A DNA stretch of 64,000 nt from Thiemannella venezuelensis. GTDB taxonomy: Bacteria; Actinomycetota; Actinomycetes; Streptosporangiales; Streptosporangiaceae. Shown here one piece after another: positions 55,441-61,318 of this stretch; within the stretch, counting starts at the first letter, position 1; every line of letters begins with the position of its first letter. Below the pieces are notes generated by a model. That model had not been told where the DNA came from. It did no database searches and worked only from the letters and a program-made list of their open reading frames with translations. The stretch lies in assembly GCF_014203605.1 (NCBI RefSeq), contig NZ_JACHJJ010000003.1:186001-250000 (forward strand), written 5' to 3'. Made by a program: the position numbers and the translations under genes.

Positions 55441-56859
55441 ATGTCAGACGGTCACGGCTTCAACCCCGACACGCCACCGGGCTGGGCGTCCAACCAGCCC
55501 CCGCCCTACGGCGGCCAGGGGCCGGAGCCGTGGGCCACTCCCGGCTCCGGCGGCACTCCCCCCAAGAGCCCGGGGAACCCGTACGGCGGAGCACCCGGCC
55601 CGTACGACCGGCAACCCGGCGGAGCAGGGCCCCACGGCCAGCAGCCCTACGGCGGGGCACCCGGCTCCTACGGCCAGCAGCCCTACGGCGGGGCACCGGG
55701 TCCCTACGGGTACGGCGCCCCGGCCTACGGGGCCCCGCCCGCGCTCAAGCCCGGCATCATCCCGCTGCGCCCGCTCGCCCTGGGCGACATCTACAACGGC
55801 GCGGTCCAGTTCATCCGGAGCAACCCCAGGGCCACCCTGGGCCTGTCCGCGGCGGTGACCGCCGTCTCCGCGATCATCGGGCTGCTCGTGCAGCTCCCGA
55901 CCCTGGGCATGCTGGCCGACGCCGCCGCGGACCCGACCGCGTTCACCCGGGACCCCTCGCAGCTCTTCGGCGCCTTCACCACCTTCTTCCTGGGCACCCT
56001 CGTCGGCGCCGTCCTCCAGATGATCGCGATCATCGTGCTGAGCGGCATGCTCACCAGCGTGCTGGGCCGCTCCGTGTTCGGCGAGCCGGTCTCCGTGGGA
56101 CAGGCCTGGCGGCTGACCGCCGGCCGGATCCTGCCGCTGCTGGGACTGGCGCTGCTCCAGGTCCTCATGGTCTTCGGGCTCATGATCGCGCTCGTCGCGG
56201 TGGCCACCGTGCTGATCAGTGTGATCATCGCGGCGGAGGCGCCGGTCGCGCTCGCCGTCGTGGTGGGCCTCGTCCTCGGCCTCGGCAGCATCGCCGGCGC
56301 GATCTTCCTCTACACCAAGCTCAGCCTCGCCGGACCGGTGATCGTGCTGGAGCGCGCCGGGGCGTTCACCGCCATCGGCCGGTCGTTCCGCCTGGTCAAG
56401 GGCGACTTCTGGCGGGTCTTCGGCATCCTGCTCCTCACCGCGATCATCGCGGGCCTGGTCGGCGGAGCCGTGAGCGTGCCGTTCTCCCTCACCAGCGGGC
56501 TGATCTCCCCCACCGACCAGGATTTCGAGACGGCGCTGACGGTCTCCCTGATCCTGAGCTCGCTGGGCGCCATCGTCTCCGGGACGATCACCAACCCCTT
56601 CTCCGCCGCCGTCACCGCGCTCCTCTACACCGACCGGCGGATGCGCGCCGAGGCGTTCGACCTGGTCCTCCAGACCGCCGCCACGGACCGCCAGCGCGGC
56701 GTGCACGGTCCGGCCGCCGAGGACCTGTGGCACCCGTCCCACGCCGCGGGCGCCCAGCCCTACGGCTACGGCTACGGCTACGGCCAGCCGCCCCAGGGAC
56801 CGCAGGGCCCCCACGGCTACGGCCACCCGCCCCAGGATCCGGGAGCCTGGCCCCGGTGA
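55441..56859 (+). CDS. Membrane protein with Pro/Gly/Tyr-rich tails (GPDPase-memb-like)
   Basis: A 472-residue protein. Residues 1-100 are disordered and built from repeats of PYGGAPG and QQPYGG; about six helices follow from residue 120 (AVTAVSAIIGLLVQLPTLGML, MIAIIVLSGMLTSVLG, ILLLTAIIAGLVGG) in the pattern of the membrane domain of glycerophosphoryl diester phosphodiesterase-like proteins. A second YGYGYGYGQPPQ tail ends it. No catalytic domain is present. It opens the MoxR operon and overlaps the next gene by GTGA. Confidence 0.78.
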   Translation: MSDGHGFNPDTPPGWASNQPPPYGGQGPEPWATPGSGGTPPKSPGNPYGGAPGPYDRQPGGAGPHGQQPYGGAPGSYGQQPYGGAPGPYGYGAPAYGAPPALKPGIIPLRPLALGDIYNGAVQFIRSNPRATLGLSAAVTAVSAIIGLLVQLPTLGMLADAAADPTAFTRDPSQLFGAFTTFFLGTLVGAVLQMIAIIVLSGMLTSVLGRSVFGEPVSVGQAWRLTAGRILPLLGLALLQVLMVFGLMIALVAVATVLISVIIAAEAPVALAVVVGLVLGLGSIAGAIFLYTKLSLAGPVIVLERAGAFTAIGRSFRLVKGDFWRVFGILLLTAIIAGLVGGAVSVPFSLTSGLISPTDQDFETALTVSLILSSLGAIVSGTITNPFSAAVTALLYTDRRMRAEAFDLVLQTAATDRQRGVHGPAAEDLWHPSHAAGAQPYGYGYGYGQPPQGPQGPHGYGHPPQDPGAWPR

Positions 56860-57485
56860 TCTCCGACGTCCCGGTCGACATCACGCGGGAGGACGCCCGG
56901 GAGGCGGCCGTCCGCGAGCTGGCCACGTCGATCTACCCCAAGGAATCCTGGTGGGACCGGTTCCTGGAGGGGGTGAGGGACTGGCTGTCCGACCTGATCG
57001 ACTCCGCCTCCGGCGTGCCCGGCGGCTGGTTCTCGATCATCCTGCTGGTCCTCGTCATCCTCGGCGTCGCCCTGCCCGTCCTGTCGATGGCCCGCAGGGC
57101 CAGCCGCGCCCGGACGGGTGGCGGCGCCGGCGAACTGCTCGGCGGGCGCGCCCGCACCGCGGCCGAGCACCGCGCCGTCGCCGAGGCCCACGCGGCCGCG
57201 GGCCGGTGGTCCGAGGCGATCAGGGAGCGGCTGCGGGCCATCGCCCGCACCCTGGAGGACCGGGCCCTCCTCGAACGGCTGCCCGGCCGTACCGCGGACG
57301 AGCTGGCCGCCGAGGCCGGCCGGATGCTCCCCGGCGCCGCCGCCGCGCTGGCCGAGGGCGCCCGCCTCTTCGACGACGTCACCTACGGCGACCTGCCCGG
57401 CACCGCCGAGGGCTACCGGCGCATGGCCGACCTCGACGACCTCGTCCTCCAGGCCAGGCCGGCGCTGTCGGGAGCCCCGGGATGA
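56856..57485 (+). CDS. DUF4129 domain protein
   Basis: A 209-residue protein: an N-terminal segment (ISDVPVDITREDAREAAVRE) and an amphipathic piece, one membrane helix (WFSIILLVLVILGVALPVL), then the DUF4129 domain (AAGRWSEAIRERLRAIARTLEDR, GRTADELAAEAGRMLP, ARLFDDVTYGDLPGTAEGYRRM). The family is linked by gene order to MoxR/DUF58 systems and transglutaminase proteins; its role is unknown. Coupled by GTGA and ATGA to its neighbours. Confidence 0.85.
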   Translation: MISDVPVDITREDAREAAVRELATSIYPKESWWDRFLEGVRDWLSDLIDSASGVPGGWFSIILLVLVILGVALPVLSMARRASRARTGGGAGELLGGRARTAAEHRAVAEAHAAAGRWSEAIRERLRAIARTLEDRALLERLPGRTADELAAEAGRMLPGAAAALAEGARLFDDVTYGDLPGTAEGYRRMADLDDLVLQARPALSGAPG

Positions 57486-58714
57486 CCCCGGACGCGCCCG
57501 CCTCCGCGCCCGTGCCGGAGGCCGCTCCCGTGAGCGCGCCCGGCGCCCCCCTCCCGGGCGTCCCGTCCCCCGGCGCCCCGTCCCCGAGCGCGCCGGCCTC
57601 ACCGCGCGCGCAGGACCTCTGGCGGCGCTGGCGGGGGGTGCTCGGCGTCCTGGCGTTCATGGTCGTGCTCGCCGCGCTGACCGCGCTGGTCACCCAGCCG
57701 CGGCCCGGCGGCTACCTCGACCCCGAGGCGACGACCCCGGGGGGCGCGCACGCCCTCGCCCGGCTCCTGCGCGACCAGGGCGTGGAGGTACGGCCCGCGC
57801 GCACCGTCGACGAGGCCCGCGAGCTGGCCGCCCCCGACTCGCTGCTGCTGGTGACGAGGACCGAGTTCCTCGCCGCCGGGTGGCTGATGGACGACCTCGC
57901 CACGGTGCCCGGCGACCGCCTGCTCGTCGAGCCCGTGACCCAGGCGCTGCAGTCGCTCGCCCCCGGCCTCGGCGCGGGCGCGCTGACCGACGTGGAGCCG
58001 CGCGCTCCGGGCTGCGCGCTGCCCGCCGCGGTGAAGGCGGGCACCGCGGTGACCGGCGGCGTCTCCTACAACGCCCCCTCCGGCGCGACGAGCTGCTACG
58101 GCGGCGGCGTGATCCGCTACACCGACGGCGGCAGGACCGTCACCGTCCTCGGCTCCGGCGAGTTCATGAGCAACCGGCGGCTGGCCGAGGAGGGCGACGC
58201 CGCCCTCGCGATGAACCTGGCGGGCACCCGTCCGGTCGTGGTCTGGCTGGCGCCCACGTTCCCGCAGGCGGGTCCGGCCGACGGCGAGACCTCCCTGGCG
58301 GACCTGATCCCGCCGGGGGTCACGTGGGCCGCCGTGCAGCTGCTCGCGGCCGTCGTGCTGGTCGCCCTCTGGCGGGTCCGCAGGCTCGGACCGGTGGTCG
58401 CCGAACGGCTCCCGGTCGTGGTGCGCGCGGCGGAGACCGCCGAGGGGCGGGGACGCCTCTACCGGTCCCGCGGAGCCCGCGACCGGGCTGCGGCGGCCCT
58501 GCGGGCCGCGGCGCTGGACCGGATCGTCCCGCGTCTCGGGCTGGCCGGCGACGTCACCCCGGCGGGGGTCGTGGCCGCCGTCGCCATGCGGACCGGGCAG
58601 GATGCACAGCAGGCGGGAGCCGTGCTGTACGGCGCGGCGCCCGGAGACGACGCGGGGCTCGTGGCCCTGGCCCGGCACCTCGACGCCCTGGAAAGACAGG
58701 TACGAGACTCGTGA
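57482..58714 (+). CDS. DUF4350 domain protein
   Basis: A 410-residue membrane protein. A Pro/Ala-rich N-terminus precedes helix 1 (GVLGVLAFMVVLAALTALV); the outer DUF4350 domain has PGGAHALARLLRDQGVEVRP and FMSNRRLAEEGDAALAMNL, and a second helix (AAVQLLAAVVLVALWRV) is followed by a cytoplasmic part. It is a standard member of the DUF4129-DUF4350-MoxR-DUF58 set. Its stop overlaps the first of the 68-bp repeat ORFs as GTGA. Confidence 0.87.
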   Translation: MTPDAPASAPVPEAAPVSAPGAPLPGVPSPGAPSPSAPASPRAQDLWRRWRGVLGVLAFMVVLAALTALVTQPRPGGYLDPEATTPGGAHALARLLRDQGVEVRPARTVDEARELAAPDSLLLVTRTEFLAAGWLMDDLATVPGDRLLVEPVTQALQSLAPGLGAGALTDVEPRAPGCALPAAVKAGTAVTGGVSYNAPSGATSCYGGGVIRYTDGGRTVTVLGSGEFMSNRRLAEEGDAALAMNLAGTRPVVVWLAPTFPQAGPADGETSLADLIPPGVTWAAVQLLAAVVLVALWRVRRLGPVVAERLPVVVRAAETAEGRGRLYRSRGARDRAAAALRAAALDRIVPRLGLAGDVTPAGVVAAVAMRTGQDAQQAGAVLYGAAPGDDAGLVALARHLDALERQVRDS

Positions 58715-58782
58715 GCGAGCGGAGCGAGCGAGCCATGGACACAGCAGCGTCGCGAACGCGACCGACGGAGGAGGCCGCGTGA
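58711..58782 (+). CDS. Repeat micro-ORF 1 (23 residues)
   Basis: Reads MSERSERAMDTAASRTRPTE then EAA and stop. Its GTG overlaps the DUF4350 stop as GTGA and its own stop overlaps the next GTG. The upstream ribosome-binding site is weak compared with those of copies 2 and 3. Whether the peptide is made or useful is unknown; it may serve only to keep ribosomes moving to moxR. Confidence 0.5.
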   Translation: MSERSERAMDTAASRTRPTEEAA

Positions 58783-58850
58783 GCGAGCGGAGCGAGCGAG
58801 CCATGGACACAGCAGCGTCGCGAACGCGACCGACGGAGGAGGCCGCGTGA
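58779..58850 (+). CDS. Repeat micro-ORF 2 (23 residues)
   Basis: Identical to micro-ORF 1, shifted by one reading frame. GGAGGAGG at 58767-58774, inside the previous unit, stands four bases before its GTG. GTGA overlaps occur at both ends. Confidence 0.5.
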   Translation: MSERSERAMDTAASRTRPTEEAA

Positions 58851-58918
58851 GCGAGCGGAGCGAGCGAGCCATGGACACAGCAGCGTCGCGAACGCGACCG
58901 ACGGAGGAGGCCGCGTGA
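58847..58918 (+). CDS. Repeat micro-ORF 3 (23 residues)
   Basis: Third identical copy, in the remaining reading frame, with its own GGAGGAGG at 58835-58842. It ends in a GTGA overlap with the 12-residue ORF that leads into moxR. Confidence 0.5.
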   Translation: MSERSERAMDTAASRTRPTEEAA

Positions 58919-58953
58919 GCGAGCACATCAGCACGGGGGAGAAGAACGCGTGA
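58915..58953 (+). CDS. Coupling micro-ORF before moxR (12 residues)
   Basis: Reads MSEHISTGEKNA and stops at a TGA that overlaps the moxR GTG. It shares its first ten bases with the 68-bp unit and is probably the ancestral linker into which the units expanded. GGAGGAGG of unit 3 is its ribosome-binding site; GGGGGAG within it serves moxR. Confidence 0.45.
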   Translation: MSEHISTGEKNA

Positions 58954-59996
58954 CCATGCCCGGGGCGGGGCCCGATCCGAGCCCCCAGCAGACCATCGCC
59001 TACCCGAACCGGATCCCCGGCGCGGACCGGGGCCCGGCCGGCGGCCCGGGCGGTGACGCGGCCCGCGCCTCGCTCGGCGCGCTGCGCGCCGAGGTCGCCA
59101 AGGCCGTCGTCGGCCAGGACGCCGTGGTCACCGGCCTGGTGATCGCCCTGCTCTGCCGGGGCCACGTGCTGCTCGAAGGCGTGCCCGGCGTCGCCAAGAC
59201 CCTGCTGGTCCGGACCATGGCCACGGCGCTGTCCATGGACTTCAAGCGCGTGCAGTTCACCCCGGACCTGATGCCGGGAGACGTGACGGGTTCGCTGGTC
59301 TACGACGCGAAGACCTCGGAGTTCGAGTTCCACGAGGGTCCGGTCTTCACCAACCTGCTGCTCGCCGACGAGATCAACCGCACACCGCCCAAGACCCAGG
59401 CCGCCCTGCTGGAGGCCATGGAGGAGCGGCAGGTCAGCGTCGAGGGAACACCCCGCAGACTGCCCGACCCGTTCATCGTCGCGGCCACCCAGAACCCGGT
59501 CGAGTACGAGGGCACCTACCAGCTCCCCGAGGCCCAGCTCGACCGGTTCCTGCTCAAGCTCACCGTGCCGCTCCCCTCGCGCGAGCAGGAGATCGCGGTG
59601 CTGGAGCGGCACGCGCACGGCTTCGACCCCAGGGACCTGTCCCAGATCAAGGCGGTGACCTCGGCAGAGGACCTGGCCGTGGGGCGCGCGGCGGTCGCCC
59701 AGGTGCACGTGGGCCCCGAGGTCCTCGGCTACGCCGTGGACATCGCCCGCGCCACCCGGCAGTCGCCGTCCCTGCGCATGGGCGTCTCCCCGCGCGGCGC
59801 GACCGCGCTGCTGGGCGCCTCCCGGGCCTGGGCCTGGCTGTCGGGCCGCGGCTACGTCACCCCGGACGACATCAAGGCGCTGGCCCTGCCCGCGCTCCGG
59901 CACCGGATCCAGCTCCGGCCCGAGGCCGAGCTGGAAGGCGCGACCCCCGACGGCGTCCTCGACGGCATCCTCGCCGCCGTCCCCGTGCCGCGCTGA
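58950..59996 (+). CDS. MoxR-family AAA+ ATPase
   Basis: A 348-residue AAA+ protein. Walker A is LLEGVPGVAKTLLVRTM, Walker B TNLLLADEINRTPPKTQAALLEAM, with sensor regions in FIVAATQNPVEYEGTYQLPEAQLDRF and MGVSPRGATALL. MoxR ATPases act as chaperones that assemble or activate partners, often with VWA-like DUF58 proteins, which follow here. The GTG at 58950 has GGGGGAG eight bases upstream. An N-terminal Pro/Gly-rich extension of about 40 residues is present. Confidence 0.95.
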   Translation: MTMPGAGPDPSPQQTIAYPNRIPGADRGPAGGPGGDAARASLGALRAEVAKAVVGQDAVVTGLVIALLCRGHVLLEGVPGVAKTLLVRTMATALSMDFKRVQFTPDLMPGDVTGSLVYDAKTSEFEFHEGPVFTNLLLADEINRTPPKTQAALLEAMEERQVSVEGTPRRLPDPFIVAATQNPVEYEGTYQLPEAQLDRFLLKLTVPLPSREQEIAVLERHAHGFDPRDLSQIKAVTSAEDLAVGRAAVAQVHVGPEVLGYAVDIARATRQSPSLRMGVSPRGATALLGASRAWAWLSGRGYVTPDDIKALALPALRHRIQLRPEAELEGATPDGVLDGILAAVPVPR

Positions 59997-61318
59997 TGGC
60001 GCTCACCGGACGCACCGGGCTGCTCGCCGCCGTGAGCGCGCTCGCGGTGCTGTTCGCCCCGCAGCCGGGCGCCGCCGTCCTCGGGCTGCTCCTGCTCCTG
60101 GCGGCGCTGGTCACGGTGGACCTGCTGCTCGCCGGGTCCGTCCGCCCGCTCCGGCTGGAGCGCGCGGGGGAGCGCAGGGTACGGCTCGGCGACTCCGTCG
60201 AGATGGTCCTGACCGTGGAGAACCCGGGGCGGCGGCGGGTCCGCGGCCGGGTCAGGGACGCCTGGCCGCCCAGCGCCCGCGCGCGGCCGGCGGAGCAGCC
60301 GCTGGACGTCCCCGCCGGGGAGCGCCGCCGGATCGTCACCACGCTGGCCCCGCTCCGGCGGGGCGACCGGGAGTCCGCCGGGGTCACCGTCCGCTCGGTC
60401 GGGCCGCTGGGCCTGGCCGCGCGGCAGGGCTCGCACGCCGTGCCGTGGACGGTCCGGGTGCTGCCGCCCTTCCTCAGCCGGACCCACCTGCCGGCCAAGC
60501 TCTCCCGGCTGCGGGAGCTGGAGGGGCGCAACCCCGTGCTGATCCGCGGCCAGGGCACCGAGTTCGACTCCCTCCGGGAGTACGTGGCCGGCGACGACGT
60601 GCGCTCCATCGACTGGCGGGCGACCGCCCGGCGCAGCGACGTCGTGGTGCGGACCTGGCGGCCCGAGCGGGACCGGCGCGTGCTGATCGTGCTCGACACC
60701 AGCCGTACCTCGGCCGGGCGCGTCGGGCTGGACCCGGCCTCCGGCGACCCGTCCGGCTGGCCCCGCCTCGACTGGTCGATGGACGCCGCGCTGCTGCTCG
60801 CCGCGCTCGCGGCCCGCGCCGGGGACCGGGTGGACTTCCTCGCCCACGACCGCGCGGTCCGCGCCTGGGTGCCCGGCGCCTCCCGCACCGAGCTGCTGTC
60901 CGTCCTGGTCAACGCCATGGCGCCGATGGAGGCGGAGCTGGTCGAGGCCGACTCCGAGGGCATGGTCACCGCGATCATGTCCAGGGCCGCCCACCGCTGC
61001 CTGGTGGTGCTGCTCACCGACCTGAACCCGGCCTCCCTGGAGGAGGGCCTGCTCCCGGTACTCCCCCAGCTCGCCTCCCGCCACCTGGTCCTGCTCGCCG
61101 CGGTCTCCGACCCGCGGGTCGCCGCCATGGCCGAGGGCAGGGACACGCTGGAGCAGGTCTACGACGCGGCCGCGGCCGAGCACCTGCGCGGCGAGCGGCG
61201 GCGGATGACCTCGCGGCTGCGCCGCCACGGCGTCGAGGTCGTCGACGCGCTCCCCGACCAGCTCGCGCCCGCCCTCGCCGACGCCTACCTGGCCCTGAAG
61301 GCCGCCGGACGGCTCTGA
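59996..61318 (+). CDS. DUF58 protein (VWA-like partner of MoxR)
   Basis: A 440-residue protein. Two N-terminal helices (GLLAAVSALAVLFAPQPG, AAVLGLLLLLAALVTVDLLLA) precede a beta-rich part; DUF58 is marked by GTEFDSLREYVAGDDVRSIDWRATARR and a von Willebrand A-like VLIVLDTSRTSAG motif resembling MIDAS. It overlaps the moxR stop by one base (TGATG). MoxR-DUF58 pairs are thought to remodel cell-envelope or secretion complexes. Confidence 0.92.
   Translation: MALTGRTGLLAAVSALAVLFAPQPGAAVLGLLLLLAALVTVDLLLAGSVRPLRLERAGERRVRLGDSVEMVLTVENPGRRRVRGRVRDAWPPSARARPAEQPLDVPAGERRRIVTTLAPLRRGDRESAGVTVRSVGPLGLAARQGSHAVPWTVRVLPPFLSRTHLPAKLSRLRELEGRNPVLIRGQGTEFDSLREYVAGDDVRSIDWRATARRSDVVVRTWRPERDRRVLIVLDTSRTSAGRVGLDPASGDPSGWPRLDWSMDAALLLAALAARAGDRVDFLAHDRAVRAWVPGASRTELLSVLVNAMAPMEAELVEADSEGMVTAIMSRAAHRCLVVLLTDLNPASLEEGLLPVLPQLASRHLVLLAAVSDPRVAAMAEGRDTLEQVYDAAAAEHLRGERRRMTSRLRRHGVEVVDALPDQLAPALADAYLALKAAGRL

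Follow-up and report, generated by a model that had tools for sequence, protein, structure and literature searches.

A tandem coding array upstream of moxR in Thiemannella venezuelensis is probably an expanded copy of a dispersed, MIRU-like unit

What accounts for a tandem array of identical short coding units, joined by start/stop overlaps, between a DUF4350 gene and moxR in Thiemannella venezuelensis? The array lies in the 64,000-nucleotide stretch of DNA analysed here (the window) and is probably an expanded copy of a dispersed, apparently mobile unit resembling the mycobacterial interspersed repetitive units (MIRUs), which were reportedly described by Supply et al. in 1997. Such a unit would insert just 5' of the xTGA overlap of operon neighbours and would be passed by re-starting ribosomes, and in many units an arm would gate the downstream start. 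Bearing on this reading are the dispersal of the unit, its empty sites, a frame rule, copy-number differences between species, and pairing and covariation in several subfamilies.

The features of the array are collected in Table 1. Each of the three units in 58711-58914, identical when read directly from the sequence, consists of GTG, 22 further codons and TGA (MSERSERAMDTAASRTRPTEEAA), with GGAGGAGG four bases 5' of the next GTG. GTGA occurs at every link in the order DUF4350 gene, three 68-bp units, 35-bp unit and moxR: the DUF4350 stop TGA falls in the first GTGA (58711-58714), while the 35-bp unit, which has its first ten bases in common with the 68-bp units, ends in the GTGA that provides the moxR start (58950). 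TRF reported 58710-58924 with a period of 68, 3.2 copies and 100% matches, the top of 26 scores in the window, and Pfam identified DUF4350 (E 3e-22) and the MoxR-type ATPase (AAA_3, E 1e-64). Direct reading and TRF agree with a preliminary description of this DNA, which had reported three identical 68-bp units with a 23-codon ORF, their own Shine-Dalgarno and GTGA links, and direct reading of 58915-58949 likewise bears out its 12-codon ORF bridging to moxR. The 35-bp unit is probably a deletion derivative of the full unit. With up to three mismatches, the 21-base unit head occurs in the window at these three places only, against 0.07 expected by chance, and Rfam gave no match at E<=1 for 57000-60500. 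The copy number of three is taken from one draft assembly of 85 contigs. A second tandem repeat (55582-55709, 36 bp x 3.7 copies) is located upstream of the DUF4350 gene, inside long open frames.

Table 1. Features of the array between the DUF4350 gene and moxR, in window coordinates.
Feature	Position	Strand	Details and basis
DUF4350 gene, upstream of the array	57482..58714	+	Pfam
68-bp unit 1	58711..58778	+	23-codon ORF, own Shine-Dalgarno
GGAGGAGG (Shine-Dalgarno) of unit 1	58767..58774	+	in units 2 and 3: 58835-58842 and 58903-58910
68-bp unit 2	58779..58846	+	same sequence as unit 1
68-bp unit 3	58847..58914	+	same sequence as unit 1
Predicted hairpin, left arm, unit 3 (TCGC-GA-ACGCG-A-CC)	58886..58899	+	minimum-free-energy fold (no better than shuffles) and family covariation
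Predicted hairpin, right arm: Shine-Dalgarno end, GTGA overlap, next bases	58909..58922	+	minimum-free-energy fold
35-bp short unit	58915..58949	+	12-codon ORF (MSEHISTGEKNA)
moxR, downstream gene, AAA_3 ATPase	58950..59996	+	start inside GTGA; Pfam

The unit is far from restricted to this junction. Its family occupies at least 15 loci of the 8.18-Mb window genome, where BLAST found 19 places and a sequence-only model 51 matches at E<=1, 29 of them at E<=1e-4. The flanks in this genome are unrelated (purF/purM type, purQ/purL type, crcB-crcB, FAA hydrolase-enolase superfamily, trpC), and the genes behind units include rapZ, purM, purL and GlnR types, crcB, trpC, a T2SSE ATPase gene and others, among them the lipoyl synthase behind L304 (Pfam). 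The preliminary description had assigned the element to moxR, an assignment that this dispersal does not support, leaving nothing specific to moxR behind the idea that it tunes moxR expression. A search of related genomes, which that description had proposed, located the family at E<=1e-6 in 40 of the 150 sampled genomes of the taxonomic family (19 of 68 genera); an absence of the unit, or of its coupling, in all relatives, which would have counted against the description, was not observed, the unit being present in relatives. The exact head TGAGYGAGCGNAGCGAGCGARCC was found in at least 118 stretches from at least 23 named actinobacterial genera, each with a well-formed unit (in Planomonospora and Thermocatellispora partly via loci of identical sequence), and hosts of the family include Planomonospora, Planobispora, Nonomuraea, Nocardia and Micromonospora. 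The head is rare in a phylum-wide sample: with only 12 candidates scored per genome, the family model found one of 396 genomes, the window genome, and a strict head pattern found five of 396 including the window genome, a reversed control pattern finding none. No match at E<=1e-5 was obtained by blastn of the three-unit stretch against plasmid and phage collections, and the strict pattern had no match in viral contigs. Many of the head matches in Streptomyces represent one orthologous place. At this conserved place (L111, L124, L130, L149 and others) the same head is preceded by GAAGTAGTACGACA or GAAGTAGTAAGAGA and the ORF is mostly of 39-46 codons; this copy looks like a fixed, domesticated unit.

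Most units in the window genome follow a long frame. Among 18 distinct places (19 rows were tabulated, L019 and L044 being one place and L046 giving no head), 13 have an open frame of 250 codons or more that is closed by the left TGA, and the rapZ place also has a long upstream frame (UvrC, 499 codons) when taken from its true first unit. The upstream frames at L004, L015 and L018 have no Pfam match, so that some may be spurious. The units at L016, L019, L045 and L047 have no upstream frame of at least 250 codons. A -10-like box was seen by eye before the unit start at L016 and L019 (trpC), and these two units may open a message.

The lengths of the units follow a frame rule. With the right end set from the Shine-Dalgarno and xTGA, and the ORF thus left out of use, 170 of 201 distinct units have a length of 2 mod 3, 28 of 0 mod 3 and three of 1 mod 3, a count that leaves out 60 of 299 core hits for want of a boundary, includes boundary mis-calls (L106 and L123 in the 1-mod-3 class and, in the 0-mod-3 class, at least L129, whose ORF gives 80 bp) and does not represent independent events, since related units share lengths. 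Of the 2-mod-3 units, 168 end exactly in the right xTGA; 27 of the 28 0-mod-3 units are without an in-frame stop, and instead of being coupled to the next gene, units of this class would form an in-frame fusion with it. Spacing within tandem arrays shows the same preference (33 of 40 intervals 2 mod 3, seven 0 mod 3 and none 1 mod 3), and the rule is obeyed by forms of 59, 65 (ORF-defined), 68, 71, 77, 80, 83 and 89 bp. In the array at L004 a 66-bp unit reads in frame into a 68-bp unit, their sum of 134 again being 2 mod 3. The frame rule thus holds across the family with few exceptions. At L287 and L331 (G134) a second GTGA in the head shortens the ORF to six codons, with the start/stop overlap retained.

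These properties suggest how an operon could accommodate such a unit. The unit start, usually GTG, would also supply the stop of the upstream gene, and the unit would contribute its own Shine-Dalgarno and a short ORF and, in most cases, measure 2 mod 3. A ribosome finishing the upstream gene could then re-start on the unit ORF, translate it and re-start again on the downstream gene. Coupling by re-start would make the insertion tolerable, and nearly neutral for the host, and tandem growth harmless, extra copies keeping to the 2 mod 3 rule. Deviations from the consensus in the ORF head are more frequent at the third base of codons (89 of 155 over the positions counted); because units had been sampled for their resemblance to the head, this excess was not used to argue for a functional peptide.

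Orthologous junctions devoid of units define the point of insertion. At moxR, 24 of the 27 orthologous loci that lack a unit have a plain xTGA overlap in the moxR frame, the count including the duplicated junction of L236, while L239 and L245 have no overlap and the call at L241 lies elsewhere. In L236 (reverse strand, near 2620-2720) duplication of the native junction has given a new short coupled ORF without a mobile unit. For gatC-gatA, 54 genomes have the gene and 30 loci were read; 28 are empty and two (L411 and L436) have a unit exactly before ATGAG, that of L436 being 72 bp and therefore in frame with gatA. At pyrB-pyrC (30 loci of 54 genomes, gene names by Pfam), 21 loci are empty, eight have a unit, recognised by eye only at L448, and one has a 15-bp remnant. 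The remnant (GTGAGTGAGCGCGGC, L458) stands before pyrC and in frame with it. All eight pyrC units begin with GTGA and the gene with ATGA, indicating that the unit brings its own first base; among 162 gene-proximal units, the right base is A in 22 of the 24 with a left A and in 35 of the 138 with a left G. Insertion at moxR, gatA and pyrC is therefore precise and at a pre-existing xTGA start/stop overlap, and such sites suggest that the units have moved, presumably by way of some moving agent.

In the excerpts consulted from published accounts, MIRUs occur in many mycobacteria, are apparently mobile, lie at start codons and have an ORF coupled at -4 nt spacing (PMC12548453); they are 40-100 bp long, tandem and interspersed, at 41 places in the M. 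tuberculosis H37Rv chromosome, 12 of them polymorphic (PMC2734929), with one locus having 77-bp and 53-bp units (PMC2453075), lengths that are also 2 mod 3, and the MIRUs of senX3-regX3 are reportedly confined to M. leprae and the M. tuberculosis complex (PMC4213456). The family described here shares the length of 40-100 bp, tandem arrangement and dispersal over the genome, the short ORF overlapping its neighbours by 4 nt (xTGA, in 168 of 170 2-mod-3 units, with 28 of 201 units mostly reading on in frame), insertion at start codons in operons (empty overlaps at three junctions) and variation in copy number, here between species. The family works like MIRUs, the likeness being one of anatomy. 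As the comparison is by description and the host range differs, being mycobacteria in the excerpt of PMC12548453 and at least 23 actinobacterial genera here, the family is not called MIRU itself. No description of such units outside mycobacteria was found in the open-access literature. In genus g71 a further model (R2) matched seven of 40 genomes at E<=0.01, the matches at L263 and L264 looking like chance, and model R3, built from seven of the R2 hits, matched 22 of 118 at E<=1e-5. Through a large MIRU-like family in soil-type actinomycetes, in which empty sites are clean and arms often fit the target, the movement and harmlessness of MIRU-type units become testable in safe laboratory strains.

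The inner arm of the unit is often the reverse complement of the downstream gene start (start codon and codons 2-3), as read at the junctions, and the predicted hairpin of arm and downstream start surrounds the ribosome-binding site. This match between arm and downstream start is new here and, like the empty sites and the MIRU likeness, was absent from the preliminary description; unlike the features shared with MIRUs, it does not appear in the excerpts of the MIRU accounts (PMC12548453, PMC2734929, PMC2453075, PMC4213456). Lying within the short ORF, the arm would pair with the end of the Shine-Dalgarno and with the downstream gene's start codon and codons 2-3, which would probably close the downstream start to free ribosomes until a ribosome on the short ORF opened it. 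The arrangement resembles short-ORF termination-reinitiation, or bicistronic design, with a hidden ribosome-binding site, in which a short ORF brings the ribosome to an overlapping start and a hairpin covers that start; unlike such designs, the module here is dispersed, tandemly expandable and often fitted to the host gene.

The fit of arm to gene exceeds that obtained with swapped gene starts. Past xTGA, consecutive complementarity in 45 arm-bearing units came to 65 bases versus 34.2 (sd 4.5) with genes swapped, 44 of 89 units being without a TCA-type arm. Over 123 distinct genes the best stem score was 7.72 with the unit's own gene versus 6.62 (sd 0.08) with gene starts swapped, and when swaps were confined to genes with the same first six bases (n=113) it was 7.76 versus 7.44 (sd 0.05; maximum of 300 swaps, 7.59); contiguous Watson-Crick stems of at least 12 occur in eight of the 123. 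Per base, with the arm placed from the unit end and xTGA alone (n=104 of 123), matches were in excess at gene nt5 (71 vs 50.1; 0/2000), nt6 (54 vs 44.0; 10/2000) and nt7 (47 vs 33.5; 6/2000) and not significant from nt8 to nt15, while a stricter threshold (n=43) gave 17 vs 9.7 (11/2000) at nt8. In genus g4 (G099 and G140) both the start base and nt5 match in 17 of the 17 genes kept, with 14 Watson-Crick and three GU pairs at nt6 and ten and four, respectively, at nt7; these 17 rows remained from 25 listed ids after near-identical gene starts (at most 4 of 15 bases different) and missing boundaries were dropped, the long-arm units L324 and L334 being among the rows dropped. L070, L071, L073, L076 and L082 were left out of the within-genus test. 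For genus g53, where one of the 16 rows (L310, 73 bp) has a mis-called boundary, the arm was not seen to follow the gene beyond a weak trend at nt5 (8/16, 126/5000), and by eye these units have a possible CCTCC/GGAGG hairpin over the Shine-Dalgarno.

Pairing was also assessed by covariation. A 65-bp subfamily in genus g71, with the structure taken from the fold of one member and 21 units used of 26 core hits given by a strict core from 73 g71 loci, has 87.4% of 231 cells paired vs 75.6%, 20 cells changed on both sides vs 5.7, and a covariation of 0.244 vs 0.077 (each 0/500), with weaker measures at 5 vs 3.1 for pairs with both-side change (22/500) and 9 vs 7.2 for further pair types (58/500). 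A shifted partner, used as a sliding control, lowers pairing to 25-42%. In 53 family units (those of the 123 with a length of 68 or 71 and this Shine-Dalgarno type), pairing amounts to 80.0% vs 68.9% (0/1000), with 81.8% vs 61.2% for gene codons 2-3 and 67.9% vs 49.7% for the unit-internal part (each 0/1000), and the number of pairs with both-side change is as in shuffles (580/1000). Related sequences can exceed shuffles without structure, an objection best answered by the sliding control and by the comparison of distinct genes within one genus. Pairing or covariation of the hairpin was thus found in several subfamilies and not in g53. The predicted fold of the window unit has the same shape, its arm pairing interrupted by a GA/GA internal loop and a single A.C mismatch. 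Among the eight stretches of a fold test, the window unit shows no advantage over shuffles (z -0.35 and 0.06), and two 65-bp units gave z -0.19 and -0.79; with z near shuffles, folding energy was rejected as evidence for both. Two long-arm units fold clearly better than shuffles (z -4.30 and -3.33), the L285 stretch, which ends short of the start codon, gave z -1.64, and the L231 stretch (wrong coordinates) was uninformative. RNAalifold on the first 14 units returned a weak, mixed structure (-9.12 kcal/mol, covariation term -0.25).

The matched arm may have been made at the DNA level, either copied from the target at insertion or as an inverted repeat completed by template switching, with RNA gating a by-product or absent, and we give this a substantial chance, a little short of even. 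The completion of imperfect inverted repeats by template switching is known as quasipalindrome correction. An origin in DNA would suit the 17 units before 17 genes of one genus that all agree at the start base and nt5, and about six matching bases would be hard to gain by single mutations. At gatA, the empty relatives (28 of 30 loci) read ATGAG with a Ser-Leu-Ile start, so this start is ancestral and the arm fits a target that was present beforehand; moreover, each arm fits its own allele (AGC in L411, AGT in L436), and the two carriers lie far apart in a FastTree tree of the gatA flanks (one region), within a 25-tip clade in which 23 tips are empty and the sisters are empty. Either two insertions or one insertion with several exact losses could have produced this pattern. 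Some arms have drifted from the start, at pyrC (TGATCAT, GACCAT, CACCAT) and at a lipoyl synthase-type gene (L304 etc.; GGTCATG, GGTCGTG, GGTCGCG, GGTCCCG; lipoyl synthase by Pfam at L304, the other loci assigned by gene start, by eye). Such drift speaks against strong, enduring selection on the start-codon portion. Against an origin in DNA, the element-internal stem also covaries, in the 65-bp subfamily and in the family set, as selection on the hairpin would give, and in g53 the possible hairpin over the Shine-Dalgarno stands in place of a start-matched arm. The two gatA units are, in addition, mutually nearest over the whole unit (55 vs 49), and only marginally so outside the arm (mutual score 50 vs 48 for three other 71-bp units), so that one shared insertion followed by losses has some likelihood. 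Were the arm copied from the target, this would be an unfamiliar way for a mobile element to fit its landing site. Tentatively, and with rather more reserve, it may be proposed that coding mini-elements of many actinobacterial genera insert at start codons and take up an inverted copy of the host gene start at or soon after insertion, forming a lock opened only by the upstream ribosome, a combination of target-copying insertion and obligatory coupling.

Guide sequences of IS200/IS605 elements pair with their target, and the arm could by analogy be a guide that permits insertion only where it pairs with the start region. The inner sequence pairs with the target flank in both cases, the pairing here being longer and the unit short and coding. 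Insertion at xTGA at all three compared junctions would agree with guiding, as would the closeness to each other of several 71-bp units before ATG genes and of the two gatA units, which are each other's nearest by the whole-unit scores above. Most arm-bearing units, however, have differing arms, and the arm would have to change before each move, making a guide unlikely.

On the reading of the array as an expanded copy of a mobile unit, copy number could change without breaking the coupling. Full units at moxR number three in the window genome (G000), two in its only congener in the set (G001) and none in G016 and G045; the 35-bp unit is present in the first three, and G045 has no unit of any kind. 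Together with the family-wide frame rule, this series sustains the earlier view of a self-contained, frame-preserving and expandable coupling cassette. A GTGAGCAAG gene likewise has one unit in L274 and four in L291, copy-number variation being seen between species only. The series at moxR could alternatively reflect an adaptive dial, in which more units raise or lower the output of moxR or another gene and selection sets their number, and in M. tuberculosis, according to an excerpt of PMC2734929, longer MIRU-VNTR arrays tended to go with higher mRNA of the gene behind them. Against this, units stand before unrelated genes, and those at moxR are identical within a species and different between the two species (G000 and G001), as slippage and homogenisation would give; a dial appears improbable. 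Local tandem duplication of the native junction without any mobile element, as exemplified by the 89-bp (2 mod 3) tandem duplication of its own DUF4350/moxR junction in L236, is ruled out as the origin of the units, and is highly improbable for the array, by the dispersal of close relatives of the moxR unit at many unrelated loci and by the dissimilarity of this unit to the native junction. The longest array seen in the window genome is that at uvrC-rapZ (L003/L005, G000:C7:259381-259942), which comprises six complete units (one of them 59 bp long) and, between partial units, an N gap, and is an assembly trouble spot.
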